Part shown: one piece after another, positions 774-64,000 of the stretch
Position numbering within the stretch: position 1 is the first letter of the stretch
Layout: each line of letters opens with the position of its first letter
DNA from: a virus
Virus record (IMG/VR): IMGVR_UViG_3300027728_000006
Coordinates: 40,352 to 104,351 of that record
Strand: one strand, 5' to 3'
Length of the DNA: 64,000 bases
The notes under the pieces: model-generated
The model's database searches: none
Told to the model about the DNA's origin: nothing
Seen by the model: only the letters and a program-made list of their open reading frames with translations
Position numbers and translations under genes: made by a program

Positions 774-774
774 T

Positions 775-1536: not shown

Positions 1537-1542
1537 TTTTTG

Positions 1543-1570: not shown

Positions 1571-1573
1571 ACG

Positions 1574-4984: not shown

Positions 4985-4991
4985 ACTTGTA

Positions 4992-5019: not shown

Positions 5020-5039
5020 ACTAATACGGGGCCTTGTTT

Positions 5040-5294: not shown

Positions 5295-5298
5295 TATT

Positions 5299-7180: not shown

Positions 7181-7215
7181 GATAAAAAGTAGTATCCTTT
7201 TTTTTTAAAGAAAGA

Positions 7216-19102: not shown

Positions 19103-19108
19103 GGTGAT

Positions 19109-19137
19109 ACCATAGTATTAATTTTAATAATAGTCAA
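19109..19137 (-). promoter_or_regulatory. divergent leftward promoter before the dNMP kinase
   Basis: The minus strand reads TTGACT (19132-19137), 17 bases, then TATGGT (19109-19114). Six bases separate the -10 box from ATG 19102, predicting a leaderless message. The unit downstream carries the kinase and sigma factor genes. Confidence 0.5.
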
Positions 19138-19304
19138 GATTTATTCTCGGCCATACTAGCGCAGGTAATCATTTTTCGTAGTTCGTATTTTGAAGGGAGC
19201 GAAACGCCAGAAACAGGCAGAACGCAAAATCCGAGACTCGCAAGCTCTTCTGTTTATTTTTTGCATTTAATATAAAACGTAACCTGTCGGAGATATTCGA
19301 CGCA

Positions 19305-19320
19305 ATAGAATTTATTCTAT
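19305..19320. repeat. inverted repeat, possible operator
   Basis: Six-base arms ATAGAA and TTCTAT flank a TTTA centre. The site is about 80 bases before the rightward membrane-protein gene in the divergent region. It is too short and AT-rich to be a clear terminator. Confidence 0.35.
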
Positions 19321-19401
19321 CATATTTTTATCTGTAATACAAGCTTTTTTTTTACAAAAAAACAAAATTTGAAAATTATAGCGGAGTCGCCATGATAAAT
19401 A

Positions 19402-19788
19402 ATGCCGGACTTTATACATTTAGGAATATCAATAGGAAGTATTGTTTTTCTCATACAGCAAACTGACTTTGTGTACGAGTATTTTAGCCTTTTCACGCGA
19501 ATCACTAAAAATAAAAAGCTTGAAGAATTTTTAAAATTCGACTATTACCAGAATTCAAATGGATATTCCAGCTATGTAGAATTTATCTGCTCAAGAGATT
19601 GGTCTGAAAACTTTATCATGTCATTTTTATCAAAATTGATATCTTGTTTTTTTTGCTTAAGTTGCTTTTTGAGTACAGCTTGCGCAATCGTGTTATGTTC
19701 AAAATTCTTATTTGGATATTTCTTGATATCCGTATTGACGTTCTATATACTTTTTAAAATAAAAAACGCCATTTTTAATAAAAAATAA
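19402..19788 (+). CDS. DUF1360-like membrane protein
   Basis: The 128-residue protein has an N-terminal hydrophobic segment (HLGISIGSIVFLIQQTDFVY) and a C-terminal hydrophobic stretch with the cysteine pair KLISCFFCLSCFLSTACAI, followed by another hydrophobic segment FLFGYFLISVLTFYILF. The C..C motif with WxE/F spacing recalls the DUF1360 family of small phage and bacterial membrane proteins. The protein probably sits in the host membrane. A holin-like role is possible, but no lysin is next to it. It is the first gene of the rightward unit. Confidence 0.6.
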   Translation: MPDFIHLGISIGSIVFLIQQTDFVYEYFSLFTRITKNKKLEEFLKFDYYQNSNGYSSYVEFICSRDWSENFIMSFLSKLISCFFCLSCFLSTACAIVLCSKFLFGYFLISVLTFYILFKIKNAIFNKK

Positions 19789-19797
19789 GTGTATAAT
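19789..19797 (+). promoter_or_regulatory. late-type GTGTATAAT promoter box
   Basis: The 9-mer GTGTATAAT, preceded by AAAAATAA, lies eight bases before the ATG at 19806. A near copy (AAAATAAGTGTATAAA) precedes the gene at 27856. No -35 box is visible. Confidence 0.5.
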
Positions 19798-19805
19798 AAA
19801 ATATT

Positions 19806-23900: not shown

Positions 23901-26900
23901 GAAATTACATACCCAATACAATATCTCAAAACAGCTCTGGAAATATACACATAGAAGAAAAAACAAATGAGATTGTGAATAGTGGAATTTTTGATTCTTA
24001 CAATGTGCTTCAAGTAAAATCTGACGACTATCTGCTTAATCACGAACAGTATATTTCGTTCCTTCCATTCGTTCCGCCGTATATTGGAGCGATATCAACA
24101 AGATCCACCGGATCGAGCAATGATCCATCACCAAATTACGGACCCTTAACATTGGGCAATATAGCAAGTGGCGTGAACAACGGCGGATACATAATTGATT
24201 TATCTGGGTTTTTCCAAAAAACCGCAGGTACAAGCGAAGTATTTATCGGCGAACAAAAGGTGGCACAAATCGATTCTACTTCGTTCGGTGGAACGCTACC
24301 ATCGGCATCATCAAGTCAAAACCTTATTTCAATTGGAGTAACAGGCTTTTCGCTTGAACAAGTTGGAACTTTTGATGTAACTATAAAAAACAACCTCGGT
24401 CAATCCACCCTGCCAAACGCGTTTGCAGTTTTTGAATCCCCCCAGCAGGGAAACACTAAGATTCAATCGCTATCTATTACATTATCAGCTCCAACTACTC
24501 AAAATCCAGCCATTTACCCAAAAAGCATTGATCTCAATCAAGATAATATTCCAGATAGTTGGGATAATCAATATTTCCCAAATGCTTTAAATTTTACATC
24601 ATTTACAATCACAGGTTTCTCAAATGCCCCAGGCGGAACATCAACATTGAATTCTCCAAACGCAGTATATTTAAAAACTCCAAGCAATCAATCTACCTAC
24701 CCTCAAGGTCAAGGAATTTATTATTACGAAAGCGGCAGACAAATCAATTCAAAGGGTCCAAACTTTATTTTATGCGCAGAAGGTAAATGCACGTTATTCC
24801 TTGCTCCCAAAAATGTAATACCATACACAACTTTGCCTTACGACCCCGTTTCGTCTCCACTTGGCGCTCTTTCATTCTTAAAAACTTTTGGTAAAGAGTT
24901 TGCTCCCTTGCCATGGAATAGGGAGTGGAAGTATGAGCAACCTCAGGTTGGCTATTCTTCAGGAACTGTTAGTCCAATATTTACAAGTCCAATAAATCAT
25001 TATGTTTTAGATTCAGATGCAGATGGATTAACAAATACAAAGGAATATGTGTTTGGAACAAGCCCAATATCTTCAGCATCCAAATACGCGCCATCTTACT
25101 CTATAAGTGGGGGAATGTTTCATTTCTTTGTGCCAACAATAGTAGATAGAAAATATACAATTCAAACTGGCAATCTTATAAATTGGTACAATGTTGCGAC
25201 CCTTACTGGAGATGGTTTTACTAAAAAGTTTTCTACGAATACAGTAGGTAACATTTTTTTCAGAGCGTTTGTTGAATTATTATATAAACCACCTACAGTA
25301 AACGAAATATTTCCAAATCAAGCCAAACTTAATGGAAATGAAAATTTTATTATCTCTGGTTCAAATTTCTCAACAGTTAATGCGCTAACGGTAGAGAACA
25401 CAAATGTTAGCAATTTTCAAATTGAATCAGATTCTATCATAGCATTTAACCCTCCAAACCTGTCTACTTCTGGATATAAAAAAATAACTATAACAAATAA
25501 AAGCGGAACCACTAGTGGAAATGGAAAAGGCATAACCTATTTCAATACGCCTATAGTAAATTCTATTATTCCGAATAAATTTTCTGCTGCTGGCGGTTCA
25601 GCAACGATTAGTGGGTCAGGATTTTGTAGTCCGATTTCTATAGCAATTGAAAACGAAAATAATCCAACCTTTTCTTCTATTAATTTAACTGGACTTAATA
25701 TCTCAATTCCAGCTCAAAAAACAATTGGAATTAAAAATCTTACAGTTTCAACTCCAGGCGGAAGTTCTAATTTGCCCATAGAAATATGTGGCGCTCCGAA
25801 CATTATCGATATAGATCCAAATCGAGGCTCTCCAGCTGGAGGAAATAAAATTACCATAAATGGTAATAACTTTATAAGTGGATACACTAAACTTTTTATA
25901 GAAAAAACTAATGGCGATTTTCAAGAAATCGCAATAACAGATTTTTTAGGGACCAGCTCTATTTCCGCAACAGTTCCATCCTCTGAAATTTCTGCGCCAT
26001 TCAGCGAAGGGTACAGGGATATAAAAGTCGAAACCTTTGGTGGGATTAACTCATCACTGCAAAGCAATGGATATTACTATGTTGGTAATGCATTATTGTC
26101 TTCTATAAACCCATCCACTGGAAACATTGATGGGCTTAATAATATATTAATAAGTGGATCTAATTTAAACTCAGATACTAATATATTTATTGATGGTCAA
26201 CAAATATTGAATAAAGTTTTTATTTCTTCAAGTTCTATATCCGGCAAGGCTCCTATTGGATTAACAACTGGATTTAAAACCGTAATGTCTAGCGGGCTCA
26301 ATCAAGGCAAATCATTTTTAATATCTGGATATAGATACGCAAAAAATCCAATTATAAATACAATTTCTACAAGCTGTATAAAAACAGGAACTTCTCCAAA
26401 CATAAAGATTTCTGGACAAAATTTACTATCAAGCCTAAAAACAAAACTAACAATTGGTGGACAAAATTCAAATATTTCCTCTAACATTTCGGAAACCGGA
26501 ATCGAATCATCGATTCCGATATCTAACAATCCTGGACCAGTTACTTTATTTATAGATACCGAAGCTGGAAGAAGCAATAGTTTAATAATAAACTACATAG
26601 GAACACCTTCAAGCTTATCAATAAATCCTAACTGGGCTAGCGAAACTGGAAAAAATAATATTACTATTTATGGAAATAATTTTGGAACTGGCGATTGCAA
26701 ACCTCTATTAAAAGTTGGAACGCAACAAGCTCAAGCCACATCCTATACAAACAGTGAAATAATATTCAATGCTCCAGCTTCTACATATGGTGCAAAAAAT
26801 ATCAATGTTGAAAATTTGGCGGGCACCGGAACTGTACAGTTTACATATTTAATGAAGCCAACAATTGCCAGTGTAACGCCAAGTGAAGGTGTCGCAAATG

Positions 26901-27766
26901 GAGGCAACGTGGTAATTATTTCTGGAAGTGGAATCTTAACCTCACCATTTGAAGGCACTAAAGTTTACTTCAATAACTCTGAAATTGCAACATCAAATTT
27001 AATTGGAAACGTAAACTCTTCAAGTCGCGTTCAATTTACCGTCCCAGCCAGAGTAGGCAGTGAAAATTATATAGATCTTGAAATTCGAAATGGTGGAGGT
27101 CAAACTTTGGTTAAAAGCGGATATAAATACATTGATGCGCCTATCATTGCTTCTCTGCTTCCATCAGCAGGATCAATAGCTGGTGGTAATACATTTGAAA
27201 TTTCTGGCTCGAATATAACTAATGATATCAGTGTAAAATTTGGAAATAACACAGTTGGAAATTTAACATTTATTTCAAATACAGGAATACGTGGATCAGT
27301 ACCATCTTCAACAAACGCTGCAATTTCAAACGTAACAATTAATGGATTAAATTTATCAACAGTTACAAAAAATTACGCATATCTAGACTCTCCGTCTATA
27401 GCGAGTATTACCCCATCCGTTGGACCATCTGATTACAATAGAATATCTTTTCAAATAAGCGGATCAAAATTCACACTGCCAAATTCAAATATAAATTATG
27501 GCTCTAGCTTAAAAATTGGAAGTCAAGAAATATTAATCAATTCAATTTCTGAAAACATTGTTAATGCCAGCATAACAAATTCAACAACCCCAAGCGGAGT
27601 AAAAAACGTTCAATTTTCTAATCTCGGAGGGACTGGAATATTAAATAGTGGATATACTGGAATAAATTATTTTCCAACTTATTCAACTCCATCATTAACT
27701 GAAAACTCTACTCTGCTCACTGCAAGCCCAACAGTTAACACTCTATATATAACTTATCAACCATAA
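20921..27766 (+). CDS. giant IPT/TIG-repeat adhesin or tail fibre
   Basis: The 2,281-residue protein is built mainly of IPT/TIG (immunoglobulin-like) domains, recognised by repeats of 'SISP..G...GG..ItIsGsnf' such as NISPHSISQFGGTSITITGS. It probably forms a long surface rod for host binding. Around residues 1203 and 1365 are calcium-loop segments (DLNQDNIPDSWDNQ and DSDADGLTNTKEY, the thrombospondin-type-3 look). The second is followed by a domain ending FFRAFVE, a layout frequent in extracellular proteins of Verrucomicrobiota. There is no signal peptide, as expected for a virion protein. It is unusually long for a fibre and transcribed opposite to the tail genes. Confidence 0.82.
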   Translation: MNIFNVNNIKSILPFFLPSSGGILKANVSEADQISEITIDGELIEFESTSSSEISLKIPSLTSGIKSIKFKTQGYTTEKPNAFTIIPPATINQVKNNDSITEKTILKRNEKLKIPKSGGSFKIVGSGFEFVNFIKIDKINIIDFKILSSSEIAVTIPLTLSGRKEKIYIKNLAGEESAFVLNLNIDNELPTITSISPDYKKISELPLEITIIGSNFDSDFLEVKVDEEIQNIKFSDSSIVKFDYLNNSPGLKNISIETSSGKTIRKNSFFNFASPNISNISPHSISQFGGTSITITGSDLDIFENVQLGETNCAILEKTYNSLIFTSPAFEDDGHKNLTLSGPFQTIVETNIIEVISEPEISSFFPNILNPTKVESVKVFGKNLLNLKNLLNSSDESNIEFLAYNNFSGEANIYPNLSGQGNQTIQSESSIGTVLDTQNIYSYNTPNPVILKIEPSVLPSYSLSINESGQIYKSDSSGIIYGNYFLPPLSVKIGGQNVKIITGSSLNTNSSIPVILPTGLIGYSDIEITSNGRTSTLNSGTNFSNLPIFEKVYPDYSWSGGGQMITIEGQNLLGSEIFIEQGTNLNPTFAKIENTKINSDQKLSFFTIPGSGGCRGQYMGTCLDPKGQDGPRIIKISGRGGDFLYSGLNYVNEPKIISAYQTGFDTIWGALPSNTIFLNGKINVNYDPSTWNSFNGKSVKFYPGNSGAFSQSVSPKINGVKLQILTDQSSATGLACKIPYLKYSLSGSNKTVLGFSGNTQITVSSGLSAELLNKSSFIDSLEDFNSSQVFVDKYLAYKIWYHNGVSEKDHSIDDWYDTSYSFDGWNKYGQGNPTPQPAQLKKIKPLEYVKKAKVRLDNGTNYQVGPGYLAGISTPNVLSFSLPSNAKIGTLIRVEIGQLGYNCTTTIPGFLEVDCDGCMYPGNGPARPNAKEKGPFTFLKTKNGWNIIHIGNYQTINSALNTGVSPGWIISPEVGELNFSWVKRKDSFDNAYFGNYIPNTISQNSSGNIHIEEKTNEIVNSGIFDSYNVLQVKSDDYLLNHEQYISFLPFVPPYIGAISTRSTGSSNDPSPNYGPLTLGNIASGVNNGGYIIDLSGFFQKTAGTSEVFIGEQKVAQIDSTSFGGTLPSASSSQNLISIGVTGFSLEQVGTFDVTIKNNLGQSTLPNAFAVFESPQQGNTKIQSLSITLSAPTTQNPAIYPKSIDLNQDNIPDSWDNQYFPNALNFTSFTITGFSNAPGGTSTLNSPNAVYLKTPSNQSTYPQGQGIYYYESGRQINSKGPNFILCAEGKCTLFLAPKNVIPYTTLPYDPVSSPLGALSFLKTFGKEFAPLPWNREWKYEQPQVGYSSGTVSPIFTSPINHYVLDSDADGLTNTKEYVFGTSPISSASKYAPSYSISGGMFHFFVPTIVDRKYTIQTGNLINWYNVATLTGDGFTKKFSTNTVGNIFFRAFVELLYKPPTVNEIFPNQAKLNGNENFIISGSNFSTVNALTVENTNVSNFQIESDSIIAFNPPNLSTSGYKKITITNKSGTTSGNGKGITYFNTPIVNSIIPNKFSAAGGSATISGSGFCSPISIAIENENNPTFSSINLTGLNISIPAQKTIGIKNLTVSTPGGSSNLPIEICGAPNIIDIDPNRGSPAGGNKITINGNNFISGYTKLFIEKTNGDFQEIAITDFLGTSSISATVPSSEISAPFSEGYRDIKVETFGGINSSLQSNGYYYVGNALLSSINPSTGNIDGLNNILISGSNLNSDTNIFIDGQQILNKVFISSSSISGKAPIGLTTGFKTVMSSGLNQGKSFLISGYRYAKNPIINTISTSCIKTGTSPNIKISGQNLLSSLKTKLTIGGQNSNISSNISETGIESSIPISNNPGPVTLFIDTEAGRSNSLIINYIGTPSSLSINPNWASETGKNNITIYGNNFGTGDCKPLLKVGTQQAQATSYTNSEIIFNAPASTYGAKNINVENLAGTGTVQFTYLMKPTIASVTPSEGVANGGNVVIISGSGILTSPFEGTKVYFNNSEIATSNLIGNVNSSSRVQFTVPARVGSENYIDLEIRNGGGQTLVKSGYKYIDAPIIASLLPSAGSIAGGNTFEISGSNITNDISVKFGNNTVGNLTFISNTGIRGSVPSSTNAAISNVTINGLNLSTVTKNYAYLDSPSIASITPSVGPSDYNRISFQISGSKFTLPNSNINYGSSLKIGSQEILINSISENIVNASITNSTTPSGVKNVQFSNLGGTGILNSGYTGINYFPTYSTPSLTENSTLLTASPTVNTLYITYQP

Positions 27767-41422: not shown

Positions 41423-44400
41423 TTAAACTACGTTAGTTGGAGGAGGAGGTTTTATGAAGCCTCCTTTTTGAAGTTCAGCTTGCATTGCGACAACCCTTTG
41501 AACCACCTCTTGAACTTGATTTTTTATACTCTCCGCCAATTGACTAACTTGTGTTTCTGAATTTTCTACGCTTGCAACCCTTCCCTGCTCTATATTTATA
41601 TTAATAGGCAAATTTATCGAATCTACATTTGTAGTATTACTAGCCTGATCTCTTGATGAGTTGCCCGCAGCCCCCCCAGAGGTTCCTCGATCTGGAACCT
41701 GCTGACCAGGTGGAACCACACCATTTGACGCACCCGAGCCACCATTTGGAGGGGCTGGTTTGGGCGGCATGAAATTCTCAATAGGCTTCATTGCCGACGG
41801 TGAGTAATAGTTTTCCGAACCTGACATGTAATATCCATTTTTTTCTGCATCTTTAATCTGAGCCGATTCAGCCTGCATTCTACTTAATTTCTTTTCGCCG
41901 CTTTCTGGAAATGGAAGCTCATCCCCCACAACAAAACTACTATTATAACCACTAACTAAAGAACTCGCTGCACCCACTCTACTTTCACTTTTAATTACCT
42001 CTGCTGATGCAGCAGCCTGCTGACTTCTCGCCTGCTGAAGTGAAACAGCAGCACTTTTTACCAATTCATAAGCATCTGATTTTTTTAAAAAATCTTCGCT
42101 TGTTATATCCATTCCCTCTGGATCCGTACCAAATTCCTTTTGAACAATATTGCCACGACCCAGCGCCACTTGAGCTCTAGCAAGACCGATATTTTTTTCA
42201 GAATAAATTTTGTCAGATTTAGCTATATAATCGGGATTTGTAGCTTCACTTTCTGTAGCTATACTCATCCTGCCCACTTTTGTTTCTAAAGCAAACTTTT
42301 GCCTATCGTTAAATAACTGCTCTGCCTCCTCTACTTTCGCTTTCGCTTTTTGTTCTTCCCCTTGCGAATCTTTAAGACCACTCTCGGCATCTTTCTTTGC
42401 ATTTTCAGCTGTGATTTTTCTTTCTGATATTTGACTGGCAATCAATCCGTCTTTTATGCCAGCAGCCATCTTAGAAACATCAAAAGATCCTTCTATAGCT
42501 TCCACCACGCTACTAAATCCATTACTACTAACTTTTGTTAATTCATTTATACCTAAAAATTGAAGCTTACTATCTCCGCTAACGCCCTTGTAAGCGTCTT
42601 GCAATTCTTTTGGTAAATTTTCAAATTCTTTTTTAGTATAGTCCTCAGTTACCCCATCAACATATTGAGAACTGTCAATCACTCCCAACTTCTGCATTAA
42701 TTGAAGATTTGAAGAAACGCTAGCCCCACCCTCCTTGTCTGTTCCAAGAGAAGACACCTGATCTCTCATACGCTTGAAAACATCTGAACCCAATGCTCCG
42801 CCAGACTGCTTTTCAAGATCGTCTATTGATTGAGCAAGCATCTGACTATAACCTTGAGAAATTGCTTGGAAATTCATATCGCCCATACTCGTAATCGGGG
42901 CTCCAGTAAATTTTGTTAATGTAGACAACGTATCTGTCAACGCTCCTAAAGAATCAAGAGCTGGCGTTTTTCCAGTATTTTTATCTATAATTTTCCCATC
43001 CTCACCTTTTACTAAATTATTTACATTGTAGCCACCGCTAACGGTTTTTGATAAAGAATCTTTAGCTTGATTAATAAGCGAGTCCTCAGCTCCAAGTAAA
43101 TTTGGAATTATCTGCTCTGCACCGCCCCCAAGATTTTGAGCCTGTGTTATTTTTTCCTTAGCTCTGTCAAATGCAAGCTGCTGAGCAAGCAAAGCCTTTT
43201 GTTGTAATTCATTTCTATTCGAAATTTTAATACCATTATTTACTGAACCCAACTCCTGAATTGTTTTATTTTTAAGCTCCTGAATTTGAGTAGCTGTAAA
43301 ACTGCCAGATGCGATCAATTTTTCTATCAGAGCATCCAATGTGCCCTTTGCTCCAGCGGTATCCCCCTGTAGGATTTGATTCATAGCTCCGCTTCCTATT
43401 AATTCATTTTTAAATTCCGTTTTTTTCAACTCGAATTCCGAAGTTGCTGATTTTATTTCTGAATCGCTCATTCCAGAAGTGGCTTTTTCATCAAGAGAAG
43501 CAGAATTAATAAGATTTCCGATAGATTCAAAAATGCTAGTAGCGCCGGTTGTCTTTGCTTGCTCTTTTTCCTGTCTTGTCGTCTGCTCTATAGAGAAAAT
43601 TCTATTATTTTCATCTCTCTTTTTGGAGACATTTGGCATATTAATCAAATCGTAAATTTCTTTACCAAAATTTCCCCTATTACTTTCTAAATCTCCAGCG
43701 AACTTAACTTTACTTAAACCTTCTTCCATTGCATATTTAAAATCTGAAAAAAGTTGGTCTACTTCTGACTTTGCAGAGGAAACTCTAGCGCCGGCTTGAT
43801 CGGCTCTCTGTCTATCCTGAGCTTTCTTTTCCGCCTCTTTCTTTTGCCTTTCTGCAATATTTTTTCTAACTTCTTCAATTTTTTCTTGTCCAGATATAAA
43901 TTTATTATTTATCGTCTGATACTCTTGGAGCCATTGTTGCAATTGATCAGGTCTATTCATAGTATCTCTAAGACTAGATAGGATTTGAAGTTCCTCCGAC
44001 GTCACTTCTCCACCACTTTTCGCATAAGATGCTTGCAAAGCATTTAAAAGTTGCCCCTTTAAATCTTGAAAGTTGTTCATATTTACCCCGCCGTCATTCT
44101 CTATCCCTAGGACTTGAATATCATTCAATTTTTTTGCAAAATCCCGAGAGCTTTCCAAAGCCTCATTCATTACGGTCGAAGGATCGTCAGTCGTTTTGGT
44201 ATAATTATATGTTTGAGCAGTTACGCTTTGAACATCTTCACTAGAAAGTTTTCTACCATACATCAGATCAAGCATTTCAGAAAGACTCTTCCCAACATAG
44301 TCAGTCTTATCGTTTTCCGTCTGTATCCCAACCATTCTATCAAAAGCTGCTGATACATTATATAATTGTTTCCCAAGATTATTTATTGTAATATCAGAAA

Positions 44401-47400
44401 AAGCTTGAGTAAAGCTTCCCATTCTCTCAAAAACGCCTTCTTGCGCATTTTCATACGTCCCACGATTACTTGCAACTACTTCTTTAGATATTTTTTGTAA
44501 AGATAAACGCTCCAATATTTCAGAATAAACCACTTGCGCATTTCCTAATCTTTCCGCTGCTACTAATTGCTCCTGATACTTAATAGGCATTGCTGTCAAT
44601 GAGTCGATATACTGCTTTTCCGCCGTGATAATATCACCCTCGGAAGAATTTGGATTAACTCTAATTTCAGCTAGTTTTTGAGAACTGTTTAAAAATTGCT
44701 GTGCCGAATCACTAAATTTTGTAAAATTTTCTGTCGCTGCTGTTACCGCTTTTTCTAATTCTGGCATTTTAGATGTAAATGCTTTTTCAATTTTTGGAAT
44801 TTCCATTAACGCAGCTATTGCTGCGCCCGCAGCTGCTCCCCAAGGTCCAGCTATCAATGCTCCAGTTCCAGCCATTCCAGCTATATTGCCCAAGCCCTCG
44901 ACGGTTGCAGCAGCCTCCCTACCGCCCTGCGTATTTTGCGGAATAAACGAAGCAATCTGTGGCGCGATGATCTGTGCAGCCATTCCAGCTTGCGAAGCTA
45001 TTGATGCTAATCTTTGTTTTTTTTCTTGGGCTATTGATTTTCTTTGCTCCGCCACCGCTTCTTTATTTGAACTTATTAAATCTTTTCTACTTCGAAGCTC
45101 TTGCTCAGCCGCGTTCTTTTTTTCACTAGCGTCCTGATCAATTCTTTTTACCTCTTTATCATAAGCATCGCTCAAAGCTGTTTTCGCGGCTTTAAGCCTT
45201 TCGTCTGCTTCCTGAATCCTTGGATCACCAATGGTAATTTGACCAGATGCCTGTTGAGCCATTAAGTCTTTATATATTTTGTCTTGGGCTTGCTTGTTTG
45301 CCGCCGCAGCCTTGAACTCAGGCGCGGATATCGCTTCTTTCAATGTATTCCTCTTATCCAATCTGTCGGTTTGCGCCTGAATCTCTTTTTCAAATGATGG
45401 AATTTCCGCAGAAGCCTTATCATTAGCCTCCGACATGTTCTTTATGGATTTTTCACCCTCTTTAATACTTTCTCCAAATTGCCTCATTTCGCCTCTTAAA
45501 AATATGGCAGAAAAAGCCACGCCTTGAAGACCAGCAATTAAAGCGGCAATTGTATTTTCATTACCATCTCCAGACGCATCAGCTGCAAAATTAGGAATGA
45601 ACCCACTCGCCGCCCCATAAGTTTTCGGATTACGCCCCTCTTTTTTAGCTCTTTTAATCCCCTGAATTCCACCGCCTGGCTCATCTCGCCTATTTGCCAC
45701 CATTAACCCCATTGGGTTATTTTTATTCTTTAAAGAACTATGCTTGTCAACATATATTTGACTCTTAGACAAGCCAGAAGATTGCTCTCTTGCTATTGCA
45801 TCATTTAAAGCATTTGAGAAATTAGGAATGAAACCAGAACTCAACCTCTTATTGAGAACTCTTGCGTTTAAAAAACCAGGCTTTCCCATTAAATCAAGGT
45901 TATCGTCAACTATTTTAGATCCTCGTTTTTGGGCTTCTACCAATTTGTCTTTTGGCTTGACGCCAAAACTAATTTTATTTACAGGAAGACCAAGTCTTGA
46001 AGAAGTTTCCCTTATTGCTTTTTCAAAAAGCGGCGGACGACTAGTCAACACATCAAACTTTTTCTTTCCAGCCTTTAACTTTTTACCTATAGGGAGAAGA
46101 TCCCTTTCTTTCAAGGATCCTAATTGCCTTATATATTCATCTTCGCCGCCTCGAATTTTTGGAATAATTGTACCATCCCAATCATACATATTTTTTCTAA
46201 CTTGATCTGCAAAATTTGGAATAAAACCACTAGCCGAGACGCCAGCCGAGCCGCCCATTGCAGAGGAAAAACGACCCTCAATTAAAGATCTGAATTTTGA
46301 ACCTTCGGCAGATCTCCTAGACACATTAGACATGCGCTTATTACTTATAATATCAAGACCTTCAAGATTTTTTACAAAAGTATTTTCATTCGCCGAAAGC
46401 GAAGCCAAATTACCCTTATTTTTAAATATTTTTTCCTGTATTCTTGTGGTAATTTCATCAACCGCCTTAGCACCAGAATATGTAGCTCCTGGGTTTTTAC
46501 CATCAAAATCCAACTGAACAGGATTAAAACCCAATGATTTAAACAACTCATTTTGATTTACATTCTTAAATATAGAAGAAGCCATTATGGATGAAACTCC
46601 AGCATATTTTCTAGGATCTGAAATGAGCCTACCAACACCCTCATTAGAATTAGCTTTTGACATTGTAGCTTTTGAATAAGCCAAATGAGAAGCCTCATGG
46701 AATAATGTATCTGGTGTTGCTCCAACTCCCAACTGTATATTTGGCTTCAAACCAGGTTTTGAAAAATTAGCCCTTCCTCTGACCCCGAATGGCAAACTGC
46801 CATCCTTTTTTATATCTAAGAAATTTGGCACAAAGCCAGAAGCGTGTTGAGTTTGAAGATCGACTCCAAGACCCCCATATTCGTCAGCCTCCACATTCCC
46901 GAAATAACTTTGTAATTTTTTTGGATCTTTTTTTAATTCATTTATTTTAGCATTAACAAAGGATGCAAATTGATCGCGGGTCATCTTTTCTATTTCCATG
47001 CCCTTGTGACCATACACTTCAAACATGGAACTCTTAGCAAGATCTGCTCTTTTAATTTGCGGGTATAAAGTTTCGGCGGAAACAGGCTCTCCATTTTTTA
47101 TTTTTTGAAGCAATCTATTCATCTGAGGCAACAATTGCCCCTTCATTTTTTTACCTTTATTTCTTTTTATTGCTTCTTCGTACAGGGCGCTACCGTACCC
47201 CTTACCCCTATATGCTTTTTCAACAGTAAGATCGCCAACATCCACATTGCCAGGCTTGTCTTCAGAGTAAGAAAATCCGCCCACTTTTTTACCGCCGAGA
47301 ATAGCATTTATACTCGAAAAGCCAAACTCGTCTTTTTTGCTTTGAGAAAATGAAAGACCAGAAGTTTTTGCAAAATTAGGAACAAAGCCGGAACTCGATA

Positions 47401-50400
47401 GCGGCACGCCATACTTATCAGCAAACATACCGCTTAAGCGTTTTAAAATCTTAGGAGGCAATGTTTGCTTTTTCTTCTTTAAATCGTCACGAGCTTCCCT
47501 AAGAGTGATAATTTTTTGCTGTATGTCTTGTGGCGTATTTTTCGTTATTCTAGATGGCAATTCAGCAAGCTGATTTTCAATTGGGGTAAGATCCTTGTCA
47601 ATCTCAGAACTGACCCTCCTCATTATCTCTTGAGCAGCCTCAGTTCTCCTCTTCATAGCTGGAGTTATTTGATTAATTGCTGGCAAGACGTGCTCCGGAA
47701 AAATTCTAGACATCGCCTCAGAATCACCAGACAACATAGCCTCCCTGGCTTTGGTTCCACTAATTCCTTCAGTTCTACTGCCAACTGAAACATCATAACC
47801 AGCCTGTTTATATTTTGTAAGATCTTTCTCTGTCTTATCAGAGCCAACAAAGGCTGTACTTCCAGGTTGTGCAGATAAGAATCTTCTCCTGCCCTCAACC
47901 GGATCAACTTCTAAATGGCGACGAATTCCCCCAGTAAAATCAGACCCAGCCTTAACTACATTAGCCCCCTCAAAAGTTTTCTGAGCCAAATATTTTCTAA
48001 CGTTTTGGTCGAAGACCAAAGTCCTCAAGGAATGCGGATCATTTTGATCTAATTTTCCACCTTCTCTTGAAATAGCAACAACAAAATCCTCAGGAGGTAT
48101 ACCCTTACCCCTTGCCATATCCATCATCTCAAGATGACCCTTAGTAGAAGGAGAAAAAGCGCCATAAGCTAATCCCAAGCGTTTTTTTTCTACAATTGGC
48201 AGATCTTTTTCCTTTTTTCTTTTAAGTCCAAAATTGGGATTAATTCCCATAATTCTTGTTTTTTCTGAACCCAAAGTGTCAAGAGCAACAGCCTCTATAT
48301 AGGCGCTGTCTAGTCCAGCAGATGTCGAAGTTCCAGCCTCTCTTCCAAAATTAGTTTTAGATGTCCCCTCCGAGATTTGAGAATCTCTTAAACTTCTTCT
48401 GCGCTTTATTTCTTCTTGCTCCGCTGGAGTAGAGGATGAGAGTATCATCAATCTATCTAATTCTGACCAATATCCTTTATCAATTGCAGCAGCGGTGCCA
48501 ACCAGCGAAGCCCTAGTATCCACAATCTCGTCAACCTTGTCAATATCAGATGGAATAATTATCGGAATTCTTTGCGTTTTCCTAAATTTTGAGTTATCAG
48601 CTCTTTCAGAATTTTTTCCACCAAGCATCATTGAACTTTTTCCAGCTCCAGGAACGCCAAAAACGCCTGTAAATTTCTTAAGAGATCCAGCCTTCCTGGA
48701 CTTTTTAGCTAATTCTCCTAGGTATTTGTGATAACCAGCAACGCCGCCGCTTATACCTAAACTGGCTATTTGCTCTTCAACTATCGCGGTATATTTTGGA
48801 TCGCTCAATACATCCCCGTCAAGATATCCTACCCTACGATCAGCAAAATTAGGAATATAGCCAGAAGCTGAAGACGCAAGACCATGAACATCTACCCACT
48901 TCTTTAATGTACTTTTTAAATTATCTGGAGTTCTTGATATTTTTGCTTCATACTGACCTGGAGCATTATGGAAAAACTTTTTAAGTTCAGGTGTTGGAGC
49001 TGGAAAATCTATTCTTTGAGTTTGACTTACAGCTGGAGCATTAAACGATTTTCTTAAAGCAGTTTCGAAAACCGTTCCGGCAGCAGAACCAACAGAGCCA
49101 GCGTTGTCCAATGAAGAAGCGTCAGTTATCTGCTCTTTTCCTCCAAAAGTTTTAATTATGTTATTAGTAGCGCCAACTAAAGCATCCCCCACTACTCCCT
49201 TAATTCCATATCTTTGCAAATTAGTTCCAGAAGTATCCAGTCCAGCCGTTGCTATTTTAGCATCAAACAAATTATTACCAGCCTCTAATGAAACATTAGC
49301 CGAATCAAGACCCTGATTGCCGCCATGGACCATTGTATATCTATCTGACAAATCGAGCTTTTTAACATCAAGGTTTTTCTTCTTTGCAGTTTTTTCTTTA
49401 TCAACGGCGCGCATTGTTGTACCGCCGCCATACATCGCCTTAAATTTGCTACCCATCGACGCAAAATTAGGAACAAAGCCAGAAGCTTTACTTTCAAATA
49501 AATTTAATCCAACCCCTAACGCGGATAGATCTACCGTATCAGAATTGCTGTTTCCCTTATATGAAGGATTAGCTTTTCTTCCAAGATATGTAAGAGCCTT
49601 AGCATAAATAACATCGTCTTTTACTGGTTTTTTAGTAACTTTAGATTCTACAAGTTGCTGCTTCGATAATTTATCTTTATATGAAAAATCTACCCCAAAC
49701 TTATTTTTCAATTTAACAGGAGTAATGCCCATGTTTTTTAACATTATTTCTGTATCTATCTCTCCCAAAGCCCCCTTAACGTTACTTACATTGCCAATTT
49801 TGTTACCTGTAGCCAGCTTAGACTGATCGAAACTACCAGGTAAATAATTACCAATAGGCACACCTTTATATTTTAAGGATGAGAGATCTTTTTTTTGCTC
49901 TAAAGAGCTATTTATTTTTATTTCTGCTATCTTATCATATGTTGAAGTATTATAAGGTAATTTAATTCTATCAACTGATACATTTTCCGAATAATAATCA
50001 GTCTTGCTATTCTTTTTTCCACGAATTCCAAAATCATAAAGTTTTTTCAAATCGCCGCCACTCTTAACGCTGGACAAGCTCTCTACTTTGTTTTTAGCAA
50101 AATTAGGAATATACCCACCAGCAGCATATTGAGTATTTTCACCAAAACCATTTGGAGGACGAACTACGGTAGCCTTTTTACCAGCAGCATTAGTAAATGT
50201 CTTTACATCTTCTTTATTATTAACAAAAGATTTAAACGACTTTCCATTGCCGTCATGTATGGTTGTTTTTTTAGCCTTGCCAGCCCTGTAGCCATGCTCT
50301 CTAGCGCCAGCATTTTCCATCGCTTGACCAACATTTCTATCGGACGCAAAATTTGGAACAAATCCAGATGAAAAAGTTTTTTTTCCAGTAGCGCTTGTTA

Positions 50401-51997
50401 AAGGTACGCCGCTAGCTCCAATACTTACTCCAGCTCTACCTAAATTGGCGGCTATTGTTTTGCTAATTCTCTCCTGCTCTCTCATCACATTCGATTGAGC
50501 GGTCAAATAATCAAGAAGTTGTTTTTCAGCTTGAACGGTCGTCATTTTGCCGCTCAGTATTTTTTCTGTAAATACGCTATTCTTTTGAAGAATTGAAAGA
50601 ACACCTTGCTCTAATGCAGCTTGCTGCTTGGTAGCCTCATTTCTTCCAAGCAACTCTTTAGCAGATCCAGCGGCAAATTTTGCTAAATTTACAAATAATT
50701 TAGTTAAAACTGCAACAGCTAAAACAGTGCCAGGACCGCCAATAAAATTCGAAATGCCCTTAAAAAATCCCTCTATAAATTTACCACCTTGAGTTTCAGT
50801 ATCTATTTTATTAAAAGATTCAATTATACCGTTGAAACTTGAAAGAAAACCCTTAGCATTTGGTTCAAAAACCAATGATCCAATTTTACTAGCAGCCTCC
50901 TCCAAATTTGAAACCGCCTGAGAAGACAAAGCCGACAAAGTTTTATTCAACTCTTGGTTTCTTTTTATAGCTTGATCAGTAGAGCTCAAAGAGGTTTCTA
51001 GCGCTCTATCATATATGCTATACTCTTTGCCCAAATCAGAAAGAGCTGCCTTCAAGATGTTAATTTGAAAAACCCCACCTACCTGCTCTGCAACATAAGA
51101 TTTTTGTTTAGCTCCAAGAGTATCATAAGTTGAGGCTAATTGTTTTAGAAGATCTATTGCGCTTTGTCCCTCTGACGTATCAACCCCTAATGATCCTAAA
51201 AGGTCTTGAACCTTACCTCTTTGCAGTCTTGTAAAAATAGTTTTAAGTGAGTTACCAATTACGGCACCGCCTCTAGCAGTAGTTTGCTGAGCTGCCGTGA
51301 CTATAGAAATGAGTTCATCCAATGAAACTCCAGCATCTTGAGCCGTAGAACCAACTCTGCTAATAGCGTTAGCCAGGTCTGCTGAACTAACGGCAAACGC
51401 GGCATCGACATTGGCTAATTTATTCACAACTTGTACCGCGTCTAAAGCTGAACCAGAGAAAGAGTTGAGAGTAGCCGTCAAAGCTTCAACACTCCTCACC
51501 GTATCAAGTCCACTTAATCTGGCTAAAATTAAAGCGGCATTAGTTCTCTTAAGAGTTTCTTCAACTCCCAAGCCCTGCCTAGCCAGTTCGGTTGCCGCCT
51601 CAGCAACAGAAGAAAAACTTTGAGCTGTATTTTTAGCTATATCAAATAATGATCCGCCAAATTTTTGCAAACTTGAAGAAGACAAATTAAGTAATACGTT
51701 GATATCTTGAAGCTTTTTTTCAACTTCTATAGTAGAAGTAATCAGCGAAGACAACGCCTTCTCAACGGCAAATATAGCTCCAGCTGATGCTCCGAAGGCT
51801 ATAACGCGAGCATTTGAAGCTTCTAAACTCTTATTAAACTCACTTACTTGAGCAGTTATTCTTCCAAGCGCCTGAGAGCTTTTTTTCGTATTAATCTGAG
51901 AAAGCTCTATTGTTTTTAGAGCTTTCGCTATATCTTTTTCCATTTGGCGCGTATTTGCGCTAACGGAAATTGTTGCACTTGTTAAACCTGTAGCCAT
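41423..51997 (-). CDS. tape measure protein carrying an array of enzyme-like modules
   Basis: The 3,524-residue protein starts with a coiled helical N-terminus and a TP901-type tape measure core (about 85-420, e.g. FGASAGAIFAVEKALSS and GNSLKTIFTRLQRG). It has a hydrophobic Gly/Ala stretch at about 2335-2400 (GMAGTGALIAGPWGAAAGAA) and long coiled coils towards the C-terminus. Tape measures set tail length and are ejected with the genome. Residues 544-2138 differ sharply: nine SGF[V/I]PNFA-type motifs bracket compact modules that look like nucleases, a kinase, a nucleotidyltransferase, an acetyltransferase, a protease and a phosphatase. Without this part the protein has about 1,930 residues. 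The ATG has a good AGGA ribosome binding site. Confidence 0.9.
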   Translation of the reverse strand: MATGLTSATISVSANTRQMEKDIAKALKTIELSQINTKKSSQALGRITAQVSEFNKSLEASNARVIAFGASAGAIFAVEKALSSLITSTIEVEKKLQDINVLLNLSSSSLQKFGGSLFDIAKNTAQSFSSVAEAATELARQGLGVEETLKRTNAALILARLSGLDTVRSVEALTATLNSFSGSALDAVQVVNKLANVDAAFAVSSADLANAISRVGSTAQDAGVSLDELISIVTAAQQTTARGGAVIGNSLKTIFTRLQRGKVQDLLGSLGVDTSEGQSAIDLLKQLASTYDTLGAKQKSYVAEQVGGVFQINILKAALSDLGKEYSIYDRALETSLSSTDQAIKRNQELNKTLSALSSQAVSNLEEAASKIGSLVFEPNAKGFLSSFNGIIESFNKIDTETQGGKFIEGFFKGISNFIGGPGTVLAVAVLTKLFVNLAKFAAGSAKELLGRNEATKQQAALEQGVLSILQKNSVFTEKILSGKMTTVQAEKQLLDYLTAQSNVMREQERISKTIAANLGRAGVSIGASGVPLTSATGKKTFSSGFVPNFASDRNVGQAMENAGAREHGYRAGKAKKTTIHDGNGKSFKSFVNNKEDVKTFTNAAGKKATVVRPPNGFGENTQYAAGGYIPNFAKNKVESLSSVKSGGDLKKLYDFGIRGKKNSKTDYYSENVSVDRIKLPYNTSTYDKIAEIKINSSLEQKKDLSSLKYKGVPIGNYLPGSFDQSKLATGNKIGNVSNVKGALGEIDTEIMLKNMGITPVKLKNKFGVDFSYKDKLSKQQLVESKVTKKPVKDDVIYAKALTYLGRKANPSYKGNSNSDTVDLSALGVGLNLFESKASGFVPNFASMGSKFKAMYGGGTTMRAVDKEKTAKKKNLDVKKLDLSDRYTMVHGGNQGLDSANVSLEAGNNLFDAKIATAGLDTSGTNLQRYGIKGVVGDALVGATNNIIKTFGGKEQITDASSLDNAGSVGSAAGTVFETALRKSFNAPAVSQTQRIDFPAPTPELKKFFHNAPGQYEAKISRTPDNLKSTLKKWVDVHGLASSASGYIPNFADRRVGYLDGDVLSDPKYTAIVEEQIASLGISGGVAGYHKYLGELAKKSRKAGSLKKFTGVFGVPGAGKSSMMLGGKNSERADNSKFRKTQRIPIIIPSDIDKVDEIVDTRASLVGTAAAIDKGYWSELDRLMILSSSTPAEQEEIKRRRSLRDSQISEGTSKTNFGREAGTSTSAGLDSAYIEAVALDTLGSEKTRIMGINPNFGLKRKKEKDLPIVEKKRLGLAYGAFSPSTKGHLEMMDMARGKGIPPEDFVVAISREGGKLDQNDPHSLRTLVFDQNVRKYLAQKTFEGANVVKAGSDFTGGIRRHLEVDPVEGRRRFLSAQPGSTAFVGSDKTEKDLTKYKQAGYDVSVGSRTEGISGTKAREAMLSGDSEAMSRIFPEHVLPAINQITPAMKRRTEAAQEIMRRVSSEIDKDLTPIENQLAELPSRITKNTPQDIQQKIITLREARDDLKKKKQTLPPKILKRLSGMFADKYGVPLSSSGFVPNFAKTSGLSFSQSKKDEFGFSSINAILGGKKVGGFSYSEDKPGNVDVGDLTVEKAYRGKGYGSALYEEAIKRNKGKKMKGQLLPQMNRLLQKIKNGEPVSAETLYPQIKRADLAKSSMFEVYGHKGMEIEKMTRDQFASFVNAKINELKKDPKKLQSYFGNVEADEYGGLGVDLQTQHASGFVPNFLDIKKDGSLPFGVRGRANFSKPGLKPNIQLGVGATPDTLFHEASHLAYSKATMSKANSNEGVGRLISDPRKYAGVSSIMASSIFKNVNQNELFKSLGFNPVQLDFDGKNPGATYSGAKAVDEITTRIQEKIFKNKGNLASLSANENTFVKNLEGLDIISNKRMSNVSRRSAEGSKFRSLIEGRFSSAMGGSAGVSASGFIPNFADQVRKNMYDWDGTIIPKIRGGEDEYIRQLGSLKERDLLPIGKKLKAGKKKFDVLTSRPPLFEKAIRETSSRLGLPVNKISFGVKPKDKLVEAQKRGSKIVDDNLDLMGKPGFLNARVLNKRLSSGFIPNFSNALNDAIAREQSSGLSKSQIYVDKHSSLKNKNNPMGLMVANRRDEPGGGIQGIKRAKKEGRNPKTYGAASGFIPNFAADASGDGNENTIAALIAGLQGVAFSAIFLRGEMRQFGESIKEGEKSIKNMSEANDKASAEIPSFEKEIQAQTDRLDKRNTLKEAISAPEFKAAAANKQAQDKIYKDLMAQQASGQITIGDPRIQEADERLKAAKTALSDAYDKEVKRIDQDASEKKNAAEQELRSRKDLISSNKEAVAEQRKSIAQEKKQRLASIASQAGMAAQIIAPQIASFIPQNTQGGREAAATVEGLGNIAGMAGTGALIAGPWGAAAGAAIAALMEIPKIEKAFTSKMPELEKAVTAATENFTKFSDSAQQFLNSSQKLAEIRVNPNSSEGDIITAEKQYIDSLTAMPIKYQEQLVAAERLGNAQVVYSEILERLSLQKISKEVVASNRGTYENAQEGVFERMGSFTQAFSDITINNLGKQLYNVSAAFDRMVGIQTENDKTDYVGKSLSEMLDLMYGRKLSSEDVQSVTAQTYNYTKTTDDPSTVMNEALESSRDFAKKLNDIQVLGIENDGGVNMNNFQDLKGQLLNALQASYAKSGGEVTSEELQILSSLRDTMNRPDQLQQWLQEYQTINNKFISGQEKIEEVRKNIAERQKKEAEKKAQDRQRADQAGARVSSAKSEVDQLFSDFKYAMEEGLSKVKFAGDLESNRGNFGKEIYDLINMPNVSKKRDENNRIFSIEQTTRQEKEQAKTTGATSIFESIGNLINSASLDEKATSGMSDSEIKSATSEFELKKTEFKNELIGSGAMNQILQGDTAGAKGTLDALIEKLIASGSFTATQIQELKNKTIQELGSVNNGIKISNRNELQQKALLAQQLAFDRAKEKITQAQNLGGGAEQIIPNLLGAEDSLINQAKDSLSKTVSGGYNVNNLVKGEDGKIIDKNTGKTPALDSLGALTDTLSTLTKFTGAPITSMGDMNFQAISQGYSQMLAQSIDDLEKQSGGALGSDVFKRMRDQVSSLGTDKEGGASVSSNLQLMQKLGVIDSSQYVDGVTEDYTKKEFENLPKELQDAYKGVSGDSKLQFLGINELTKVSSNGFSSVVEAIEGSFDVSKMAAGIKDGLIASQISERKITAENAKKDAESGLKDSQGEEQKAKAKVEEAEQLFNDRQKFALETKVGRMSIATESEATNPDYIAKSDKIYSEKNIGLARAQVALGRGNIVQKEFGTDPEGMDITSEDFLKKSDAYELVKSAAVSLQQARSQQAAASAEVIKSESRVGAASSLVSGYNSSFVVGDELPFPESGEKKLSRMQAESAQIKDAEKNGYYMSGSENYYSPSAMKPIENFMPPKPAPPNGGSGASNGVVPPGQQVPDRGTSGGAAGNSSRDQASNTTNVDSINLPININIEQGRVASVENSETQVSQLAESIKNQVQEVVQRVVAMQAELQKGGFIKPPPPTNVV
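45842..46207 (-). other. tape measure module: HAD-like phosphatase
   Basis: Residues 1931-2052 have MYDWDGTIIP (D1939 and D1941, the DxDGT motif I), FDVLTSRPP (motif II) and KIVDDNLDLM (D2031/D2032, motif IV). This is a short HAD fold of the 5'(3')-nucleotidase or polynucleotide-3'-phosphatase kind. Confidence 0.6.
46232..46816 (-). other. tape measure module: zincin metallopeptidase-like
   Basis: Residues 1728-1922 include TLFHEASHLAYSKAT, an HExxH zinc site (H1767, E1768, H1771) preceded by a hydrophobic helix. A third ligand cannot be named from sequence alone. It might mature the protein or cut a host barrier. Confidence 0.5.
47003..47365 (-). other. tape measure module: GNAT acetyltransferase-like
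   Basis: Residues about 1545-1665 hold VGDLTVEKAYRGKGYGSALY, the acetyl-CoA binding R/Q-x-x-G-x-G/A loop (RGKGYG) after a beta strand. The strand order before it fits GNAT. The target is unknown. Confidence 0.6.
47663..48190 (-). other. tape measure module: HxGH-type nucleotidyltransferase-like
   Basis: Residues about 1270-1445 contain AYGAFSPSTKGHLEMMD, the (H/T)xGH nucleotide-binding signature (T1285, H1288). FVGSDKTEKDLTKY and ISGTKAREAML (the ISxTxxR motif) come later. This order is typical of NMN, pantetheine-phosphate and cytidylyl transferases. The substrate is unknown. Confidence 0.65.
48248..48745 (-). other. tape measure module: P-loop kinase-like
   Basis: Residues about 1085-1250 contain the Walker A motif GVPGAGKSSMM (K1120, S1121). 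The strand RIPIIIPSDIDKVDEIVDTR follows, as in zeta-toxin or polynucleotide-kinase-like P-loop proteins. The substrate cannot be told. Confidence 0.55.
48878..49105 (-). other. tape measure module: PD-(D/E)XK nuclease-like 2
   Basis: Residues about 965-1040 have SAAGTVFETALRKSFN (E978), QRIDFPAP (D997) and GQYEAKIS (E1017-x-K1019), again the E, D, ExK order. The region before (847-964) is unassigned. It is a different sequence from the first module. Confidence 0.5.
49568..49795 (-). other. tape measure module: PD-(D/E)XK nuclease-like 1
   Basis: Residues about 735-810 have KGALGEIDTEIMLKNMG, GVDFSY (D770) and QLVESKV (E784-x-K786), the E, D and ExK order of the PD-(D/E)XK fold. The pattern is compact and complete, but activity cannot be judged. 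Confidence 0.55.
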
Positions 51998-53926: not shown

Positions 53927-53943
53927 AATTTTTCCTTTTTCCT

Positions 53944-53975
53944 TTTATTTTACCGTTTATTTTACCGTTTATTTT
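53944..53975. repeat. tandem AAAATAAACGGT repeat upstream of a chaperone-like gene
   Basis: Two full copies and one partial copy of AAAATAAACGGT occur just before the ribosome binding site of the 53926 gene on the minus strand. It could be an expansion site or a protein binding site. Confidence 0.6.
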
Positions 53976-54380: not shown

Positions 54381-54686
54381 TTAATTAAATAAGTTTTTTA
54401 CTGAATGAGTTACTTTAGATGATTGACCAGGAACAGGAATCGAAGCAGTAATTGCAGGCTCCTGCTCTAATTTAACAGGCTCAACTTTTGGCTGGACTTC
54501 AACTTTTGGCTGGACTTCAACTTTTGGTTTACCATTCAATTTAAAATTTTCAGAAATATAATCGAAGTCATGACTTGAAAGCTCCACGCTACTGCCTTGA
54601 ACTTTTCCTCTTTTTTTAACCTCTTCAACGTACCCAGCGGCTCTCTCACGAGCCGCCGAATAAATTGTTTTTAGTGGAATTTTCAT
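54381..54686 (-). CDS. small hypothetical protein with PKVEVQ repeats
   Basis: This 101-residue protein has an N-terminal helical part with KTIYSAARERAAGYVEEVKK and a proline-rich middle with two exact repeats of PKVEVQ followed by PKVEPV. It follows the tail tube gene in the same unit. The repeats look like a flexible, extended spacer. No function was recognised. Confidence 0.55.
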   Translation of the reverse strand: MKIPLKTIYSAARERAAGYVEEVKKRGKVQGSSVELSSHDFDYISENFKLNGKPKVEVQPKVEVQPKVEPVKLEQEPAITASIPVPGQSSKVTHSVKNLFN

Positions 54687-62515: not shown

Positions 62516-64000
62516 TTATAGATCTTTTATAACTGTTACGTTATTGTTTCCTTGGAATTCTAATCCAGTTCCAGTTGTCCAAGAATCATCTGAGACTCTA
62601 GCATGAATGGTAAGAGGACTTGATGTGTTTTGCAATGCATTAGATCCAATAAATGCTGCTAATGTTGTATTACAATTAACAGTAGCTAGATTTGTGTTAT
62701 TATTGAATGCATAGTTTCCAATAGTAGTCACAGAATTTGGAATAGTAACTGAAGTCAGTTGGTTAGAATGGAATGCACCGTCTCCAATACTAGTTACAGA
62801 ATCTGGAATAGTAACTGAAGTCAGTTGGTTATTATTGAATGCACTGCTTCCAATACTAGTCACAGAATTTGGAATAGTAACTGAAGTGAGTTGGTTATTA
62901 TAGAATGCACCGCTTCCAATACTAGTCACAGAATCTGGAATAGTAACTGAAGTCAGTTGGTTATAACCGAATGCATAGCTTCCAATACTTGTCACAGAAT
63001 CTGGAATAGTAACTGAAGTCAGTTGGTTATTACCGAATGCATAGTTTCCAATACTAGTCACAGAATTTGGAATAGTGACTGAAGTGAGTTGGTTATAACG
63101 GAATGCATAGCTTCCAATACTAGTCACAGAATTTGGAATAGTAACTGAAGTCAGTTGGTTACTATAGAATGCATAGCTTCCAATACTAGTCACAGAATTT
63201 GGAATAGTGACTGAAGTAAGTTGGTTAGAACGGAATGTACTGCTTCCAATACTTGTAGCAGAGGAGCCAATGTCTACATAACCTGCAATGTTTTGTTGGG
63301 ATTTCCAATCATCTGGAACATTTCCGTTTACTGTGAATAGAATGTTTCCTTCGCTGTCGTAGATTGTGGTATCTAAAGGAGAGACAAAGCCTCCCCCGCC
63401 GCCGCCATCGAGTTCTAAACCATTTCCACTGTTGTAGAGCGCAGCGACTTCTGCATCAGAGAGTGCTCTGTTCCAAATGCCAACTGCGTCCATTGAACCA
63501 GTAAACGGACCATATGTTCCATCTGCATTTTGTCCTAATGAAACTGAACTTCCGCCCGGAATAGGAGTATTATCTATAGTATCAGAAACACAGTCTACAG
63601 ACCCATTTATATAAATCTTTAATTGACCGTTATTTCTTACACCAACAAGATGATACCAAGTGTCAGTAGCTAGTTCTGTTTGGCTGGTTAAACCGTAACC
63701 CAAACTGTCTCCACCAAAATTGGCGTATGCTATTGGGAATTTATCTTGTAAATCCAATGTAATTCCGCCATTTTGCCAAGCATTACCTGTCAATCCGTTA
63801 ATTAAAGACTGAGGACCACTTGAATTAGTATCTAATTTGACCCAACATGCTAATGTATAGTTAGTAATTCCAGTTTGATCGACAGGAGAACTCATCCAAT
63901 TACTTCCATCAAACACAGCCGCATTTCCAATTTTACCAGAAGCAAAGGAGACGTTGCCGTTGTTGGTGAGTGTTCTGTTGTTTCCTGATGAGTCGGAAGT
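62516..64000 (-). CDS. LamG plus BspA-like leucine-rich repeat adhesin (partial)
   Basis: The frame stays open to the right edge, with the start beyond 64000. It has an N-terminal LamG/concanavalin-type sugar-binding domain (ending about residue 165 of the visible part), marked by [16 protein letters not shown] and [16 protein letters not shown] short linker and nine 22-residue BspA-type leucine-rich repeats ([13 protein letters not shown] type) follow. Such repeats mediate binding to host surfaces. It is next to a sulfotransferase gene and may be the receptor-binding fibre. The visible GTG at 63914-63916 is internal, not the start. Confidence 0.85.
62669..63262 (-). repeat. nine 66-base tandem repeats in the adhesin gene
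   Basis: Nine copies of a 66-base unit encode 22-residue BspA-type leucine-rich repeats. The first and last are degenerate; inner ones are nearly identical in DNA, with variation in a short 'SYAF.SNQ' part. Copy number and order can shift by recombination, which could change receptor binding. Confidence 0.9.

Follow-up and report, generated by a model that had tools for sequence, protein, structure and literature searches.

A tape measure protein with an internal, motif-bounded array of exchangeable enzyme-like modules

This analysis concerns one long gene of an uncultured phage, in a 64,000-nucleotide stretch (hereafter the window) of the 104,351-base IMG/VR virus record IMGVR_UViG_3300027728_000006. 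On the minus strand, window positions 41423-51997 form an uninterrupted open reading frame (ORF) of 3,524 amino acids that encodes a tape measure protein (TMP) and holds a row of discrete modules, several with enzyme signatures, separated by copies of a single octapeptide motif. Comparison with related viruses shows that this motif marks module boundaries at which modules are gained, lost and exchanged, and that the modules are held under strong purifying selection. The row is probably an exchangeable effector array carried on the TMP and delivered at genome ejection.

The assignment as a TMP, made earlier in a reading of the letters alone (hereafter the sequence-only reading), is borne out by a match to the Pfam domain PhageMin_Tail (4.5e-25, residues 121-308, positions 51074-51637; all features of this gene are on the minus strand) and by PHROG tape measure families, which match down to 5.5e-46. 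The N-terminal part, residues 1-543, is conserved, relatives being 48-84% identical to it across about 540 residues. Directly thereafter begins the array, in which nine copies of the motif start at residues 544 (SGFVPNFA, 50345-50368), 627 (GGYIPNFA, 50096-50119), 839 (SGFVPNFA, 49460-49483), 1045 (SGYIPNFA, 48842-48865), 1536 (SGFVPNFA, 47369-47392), 1720 (SGFVPNFL, 46817-46840), 1923 (SGFIPNFA, 46208-46231), 2054 (SGFIPNFS, 45815-45838) and 2131 (SGFIPNFA, 45584-45607). They span residues 544-2138, window positions 45584-50368, exactly where the sequence-only reading had placed the array. Its description of nine near-identical copies was slightly generous: nine are present, of which five follow SGF[VI]PNFA letter for letter. 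The pattern [SG]G[FY][VI]PNF, found nine times in the TMP, appeared in none of 2,000 shuffles, and the six frames of the window hold no copy outside the TMP.

The motifs enclose eight intervals, whose enzyme signatures are identified with unequal firmness. The identity of the GNAT module (residues 1536-1719, 46841-47392) is solid: Pfam recognises it at 2.6e-5, its top 50 Foldseek matches are almost all annotated as GNAT proteins or acetyltransferases, a PDB profile matches at 4e-4, and it carries the GNAT fold together with the R/QxxGxG/A motif. The case for a HIGH-type nucleotidyltransferase (residues 1267-1458, 47624-48199) is good, being based on a PDB profile match of 1.7e-6 to MJ0951 and weaker ones to nicotinamide mononucleotide and phosphopantetheine adenylyltransferases; TxGH is present as TKGH at 1285-1288 and ISGTxxR at 1412, and Pfam PF16581 matches weakly in the window TMP and at 1.4e-7 in the homologue L077 (L-numbers denote related loci or stretches recovered from IMG/VR). 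This part is preceded by a P-loop kinase-like part (residues 1045-1243, 48269-48865) whose sole kinase signature is a Walker A sequence, GVPGAGKS at 1114, with residues conserved in six homologues; homologues of the kinase-like part occur either singly or joined to the nucleotidyltransferase.

The kinase identity is motif-level, as are those of the next two modules. The putative zinc peptidase (residues 1720-1922, 46232-46840) has HEASH at 1767-1771, an HExxH signature kept in 3/3 members, and PDB profiles gave no meaningful match for it. The HAD phosphatase-like module (residues 1923-2053, 45839-46231) has DWDGT (DxDGT) at 1939 followed by T, K and DD, all four motifs being invariant even in a homologue that is 33% identical; no PDB profile matched. 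The P-loop, TxGH, GNAT, HExxH and HAD signatures named in the sequence-only reading are thus all present at the residue level.

Two further intervals are PD-(D/E)XK-like, both calls again being motif-level. In the first (residues 627-838, 49484-50119) the set E746, D770, E784 and K786 is invariant in five members. In the second (residues 839-1044, 48866-49483), hereafter core module B, the residues E978, D997, [ED]1017 (E in the window) and K1019 are kept in 51/51 sequences, and AlphaFold2 (AF2) predicts a confident domain, with a predicted local distance difference test (pLDDT) score of about 85-93 across much of residues 863-1040, in which E lies on a helix and ExK on a strand. PDB profiles did not match core B, and Foldseek of a model of residues 535-1540 against PDB and BFVD returned no usable match; since no PDB relative was obtained, the label stops at PD-(D/E)XK-like. 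Both of the E..D..[DE]xK sets that had been proposed therefore exist, but no nuclease fold was retrieved for the domain that was modelled with confidence. Core module A (residues 544-626, 50120-50368) is a small predicted beta-rich domain (AF2 pLDDT about 70) belonging to a 70-member cluster, and core module C (residues 2054-2130, 45608-45838) belongs to a 108-member cluster.

The search for the motif in other phage TMPs that had been suggested together with the sequence-only reading yielded a family. An IMG/VR search with the N-terminal part of the TMP returned 12 related loci at first and 79 later, and a motif-only scan gave 91 stretches; deduplication left about 126 complete or fragmentary TMPs, which contain 558 motifs and 429 inter-motif modules. 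The modules form about 100 groups, of which 63 have a single member. The motif consensus in the family is A-[AS]-[SG]-G-[FY]-[IV]-P-N-F-A. The commonest layout consists of four motifs around the three core modules A (about 82 residues), B (about 265 residues in the family, about 206 in the window) and C (about 75 residues), with extra modules sitting between core modules; the window phage has eight intervals and L032 more. The TMP N-terminal profile was found in 141 of the 177 motif-bearing ORFs examined. Those with at least two motifs and no such profile are all 5'-truncated, save L085/L140, and the remaining ones have one motif each and come mostly from bacterial genomes. On these comparisons, an array position inside the TMP is supported as typical of a whole viral clade. 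In L085 (nt 3045-4532 and 4502 onward), and also in L140, one TMP is divided over two frames that overlap shortly ahead of the array, through either a programmed frameshift or a sequencing error. A host search in GTDB genomes turned up no relative of the TMP; matches to the motif pattern there numbered 44, all single-copy, which is the chance level.

Relatives add a staphylococcal-nuclease-like SNase module (Pfam 9e-5, PDB profile 1.8e-7) and ART-like modules, the latter on motif evidence, PDB profiles giving no meaningful match for them; a Pfam scan of 93 modules produced one AAA_33 and one PcfJ match. In the L032 TMP (residues 1668-2847) motifs and a module recur about 930 residues onward, on the far side of a ruler-like stretch; arrays can thus lie at more than one site. 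Two RNA ligases are encoded in the phage genome (L239, nt 2560-3570, minus strand; L238, nt 18718-19803, minus strand), and one may speculate that they and the kinase and HAD modules of the TMP hint at RNA repair.

The evidence that the motif is a module boundary is as follows. Among six TMPs of the window's clade, homology breakpoints (n = 45) have a median distance of 6 residues to a motif, where random positions would give 41, and 76% of them fall within 15 residues of a motif, against 19% at random, in a test that is slightly favoured by local alignments running through shared motifs. L021 and L022 have flanks that are 91-96% identical, between which L022 has an additional 328 residues, consisting of HExxH and HAD modules and placed between two motifs; likewise, the slot between core A and core B holds different modules in relatives. 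Signals of mosaic sequence in TMPs were reported in a 2023 survey, genuine recent mosaicism not being confirmed (PMC10684548). L021 and L022 offer a clear candidate case of such recent mosaicism.

The L022 block also bears on the idea that the array is ordinary tape. TMP length sets tail length in general, as is well established, and the tail length of 529 nm computed earlier for the full protein is arithmetically right (3524 x 0.15 nm). A plain extension of the ruler is nevertheless highly improbable here, the array having a globular composition and variable modules; it was rejected on the presence or absence of the 328-residue block between nearly identical flanks and on the lack of a trade-off between array length and post-array length (rho +0.42). 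The post-array ruler region itself covers residues 2168-3524 (41426-45496), and the wider stretch of residues 2150-3500 is only 30% identical to that of L022, although the modules are 86-96% identical.

Purifying selection is seen in the ratio of nonsynonymous to synonymous substitution rates (dN/dS), which between the window and L022 takes values of 0.04-0.10 in the modules tested and 0.09 in the N-terminal part of the TMP. The dS of A, B, C and the peptidase (0.4-0.6) is below that of the N-terminus (1.8, values above 1 being unreliable), which fits inter-phage exchange of modules and does not prove it. Since modules diverge as much as the N-terminus or more, it could not be told whether individual modules moved horizontally between distant TMPs or were inherited from long ago. 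The claim of an array of enzyme modules thus stands as far as discrete, exchangeable, selectively kept and motif-bounded modules are concerned, their enzyme type being given by profile or fold for the GNAT and the nucleotidyltransferase and by motif for the others.

Metagenomic assembly was the source of these data, and repeats can join contigs; yet an assembly or ORF artefact, or the scar of a mobile element, is so improbable as to be nearly negligible. The same organisation is found in dozens of independent contigs and the frames are open with low dN/dS, on which grounds an artefact was rejected; moreover, the DNA repeats are too short and too diverged for misjoining. Module borders are without inverted repeats, which speaks against a mobile-element scar and led to the rejection of integron-like cassettes.

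A search with the kinase-nucleotidyltransferase led to a second clade of TMPs (L235 and L240-L246, on contigs of up to 238 kb; L235, nt 607-7419; L235 and L241 are one contig). The TMPs scanned, all PhageMin_Tail proteins, contain no SG[FY][IV]PNF. They carry the kinase-nucleotidyltransferase, and several have HAD and SNase modules by profile; HExxH, PD-(D/E)XK-like and GNAT modules were seen by eye. Their spacers are (K/R)FAxGGxV and VPALLTPGEFVV sequences (FAxGG/TPGEFV). Relatives of the nucleotidyltransferase in IMG/VR were in TMP-type ORFs in 9/9 cases (the FAxGG spacer being present in seven, the SGFIPNFA motif in the other two) and those of the SNase module inside SGFIPNFA-motif ORFs in 5/5, these searches picking up close relatives only, so that distant free-standing homologues are possible. 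In 50,697 cultured phage records, tblastn found no match to the cargo of either the window array or the second clade, one search matching spacers only. Nothing points more strongly to the cargo being important, and to the spacer belonging to the carrier, than this recurrence of similar cargo in two lineages of TMPs whose spacers differ. The fixed motif, which had looked special in the sequence-only reading, marks boundaries within the window's clade and is not the only spacer: FAxGG/TPGEFV spacers join the same cargo in the second clade. Upstream of the first motif in L012, L015 and L016, a 'TAHTGEWAVPNYGGGDGTAIWN' segment that resembles the TPGEFV spacer replaces core A. There are thus hints that the SGFIPNFA-type and TPGEFV spacers may be related.

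What could such cargo do? It is established for TMPs in general that they exit the tail in front of the DNA and enter the cell envelope. They fill a tube of about 40 Å, come out before the DNA and have been proposed to contribute to the membrane channel (PMC8718954); during injection the TMP of lambda is at the inner membrane, and the defence nuclease SNIPE targets it (PMC13190303). In the window TMP, a Kyte-Doolittle scan predicts one membrane-type hydrophobic segment before the array (residues 418-436, 50690-50746), present at the same place in 15/15 TMPs examined, and another directly after it (residues 2149-2167, 45497-45553). The latter lies about 10-30 residues past the last motif in the window TMP and several relatives; it is present in L007, L014 and L016 and below threshold in others such as L022 and L020. 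The kinase, nucleotidyltransferase and acetyltransferase would depend on ATP or acetyl-CoA; these and similar cofactors are found in the cytoplasm, which suggests that compartment as the place where the modules would act. From the hydrophobic segments, the discharge of TMPs and these cofactor needs, I infer that tethered or released enzymes are delivered when infection begins.

The TMP would then be both a ruler and a vehicle, with a magazine of enzyme-like modules (two nuclease-like, a kinase-nucleotidyltransferase, an acetyltransferase, a putative metallopeptidase and a HAD phosphatase) between the N-terminal tail domain and the coiled-coil ruler. The [SG]G[FY][IV]PNFA joints would keep the modules apart as beads, each joint most likely being a flexible hinge or docking point that would allow beads packed in the tube of about 4 nm to refold independently. 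On leaving the tail before the DNA, the TMP would enter the cell envelope and its modules would be shown to, or freed into, the host cytoplasm, where, during the opening minutes of an infection, they might act on the defences or nucleic acids of the host or in protecting the incoming genome.

Several points weigh against delivery of active enzymes. Both ejection into the host and enzyme activity of the modules are putative. Several TMP copies with folded 20-kDa domains are too big for a 4-nm lumen at one level, so modules must travel partly unfolded or staggered. Interval by interval, fold and profile searches recognised the GNAT and the nucleotidyltransferase, but AF2 with shallow alignments resolved well only the GNAT and core B, not the HAD, peptidase or kinase folds, and core B is without a PDB fold match. 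Lastly, modules A and C occur in almost all arrays and do not resemble enzymes, and some modules may be structural and not enzymatic. This last point and the restricted room for folded enzymes in the lumen would be accounted for if the beads were derived from enzymes and now served, inactive, as lumen or membrane parts (pore, tube contacts or chaperone docking). For the array as a whole this is quite improbable, the catalytic residues of the GNAT, HAD, nucleotidyltransferase and nuclease-like modules being conserved at 25-40% identity and sister TMPs differing in module content.

Cleavage at the motif is possible but unsupported. It is unlikely that the motif is a protease site at which the TMP is cut, during maturation or entry, to release free enzymes. 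A single octapeptide does lie between every pair of modules, its flanking residues are small (A or S at -2 and -1, A at +7), the motifs lie in low-confidence, linker-like regions of the AF2 models, and the array holds a putative metallopeptidase module; however, no protease was identified, the putative peptidase is missing from most motif-bearing arrays, and a cut TMP would lose the continuity of the ruler unless cut after assembly. A bolder scheme would have the TMP be a cleavable polyprotein magazine in which SG[FY][IV]PNFA is a processing or docking code, any enzyme could be loaded and the beads would be freed in the host, two TMP lineages having come to the same solution with different codes; this is conceivable, though doubtful.

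Delivery of an effector array by the TMP may be compared with several known systems. Polyvalent proteins (Iyer et al. 2017, PMC5512222) likewise unite enzymatic domains of several unrelated kinds in a single polypeptide associated with virion genes, and are proposed to be injected with the DNA (PMC5512222); ART and GNAT are among their reported domain types (PMC7824862). The window array contains at least two unrelated enzymatic domains, GNAT and the HIGH-type nucleotidyltransferase by profile or fold and others by motif, and its carrier, as a TMP, is itself linked to the virion. It differs from the polyvalent exemplars, which are MuF/portal, DarB and N4 vRNAP proteins, in its TMP vehicle, its fixed spacer motif and its ordered core A-B-C; Pfam scans of the TMPs found none of the hallmark partners MuF, DarB/DdrB, N4 vRNAP and PBECR, and the word 'tape' is absent from PMC5512222, which never mentions tape measure proteins. 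The Sle1/Tme effectors of contractile injection systems (CIS; PMC13277306, PMC11126660) also have a TMP-derived carrier with an exchangeable functional domain and a phage-tail-like tube. They belong, however, to bacterial CIS and have one C-terminal functional domain and a DUF4157 partner, in contrast to the internal multi-module array in the phage's own TMP; the sheath domain PF04984 had no match in the 104-kb record, which is possibly incomplete. Phage TMPs with peptidoglycan hydrolases, such as SPbeta YomI (annotated as a transglycosylase), resemble the window TMP in having enzyme domains inside a TMP, and the N-terminal domains of these two proteins are related (about 30% identity). Known hydrolase cargo acts on the cell wall, whereas the nuclease-like, GNAT, kinase/nucleotidyltransferase and HAD modules of the window, and also the SNase and ART-like modules of relatives, need cytoplasmic substrates. 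Polymorphic toxins (PMC3482391) share swappable effector domains on a conserved carrier, but each has a single C-terminal toxin in place of an internal array of many modules; no immunity genes were noticed with the window array, no search having been aimed at them. In the open-access literature no description was found of TMP cargo arrays, of SGFVPNFA, of 'PNFA' with tape measure or of 'TPGEFV'. Judged by that literature, the idea of an injected multi-domain protein is known, and a TMP carrier with a motif-defined joining rule appears new.

Around the TMP gene, none of the ten neighbouring tail-region ORFs tested received a name from PHROGs. A 2,281-residue protein with 11 IPT/TIG domain matches adjoins the tail genes (20921-27766, plus strand), and a protein with BspA-type leucine-rich repeats and a laminin-G-like domain is encoded at 62516-63916 (minus strand). 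Short direct repeats, TTTTACCGTTTA and CTTTTGGCTGGACTTCAA, lie at 53936-53971 and 54485-54520, directly upstream of the TMP gene.

TMPs are among the commonest proteins of viruses and have chiefly been regarded as rulers and channels. If the delivery reading is true, a TMP family with about 100 sorts of exchangeable module would make the TMP a general platform for protein delivery, and many early-acting anti-host or anti-defence enzymes would be concealed in 'tail' genes. The array also raises a testable question, namely whether enzymes ride inside a 4-nm tail tube, and would, on the same condition, provide a natural place for insertions, defined by the motif, at which the passage of proteins through phage tails could be studied.

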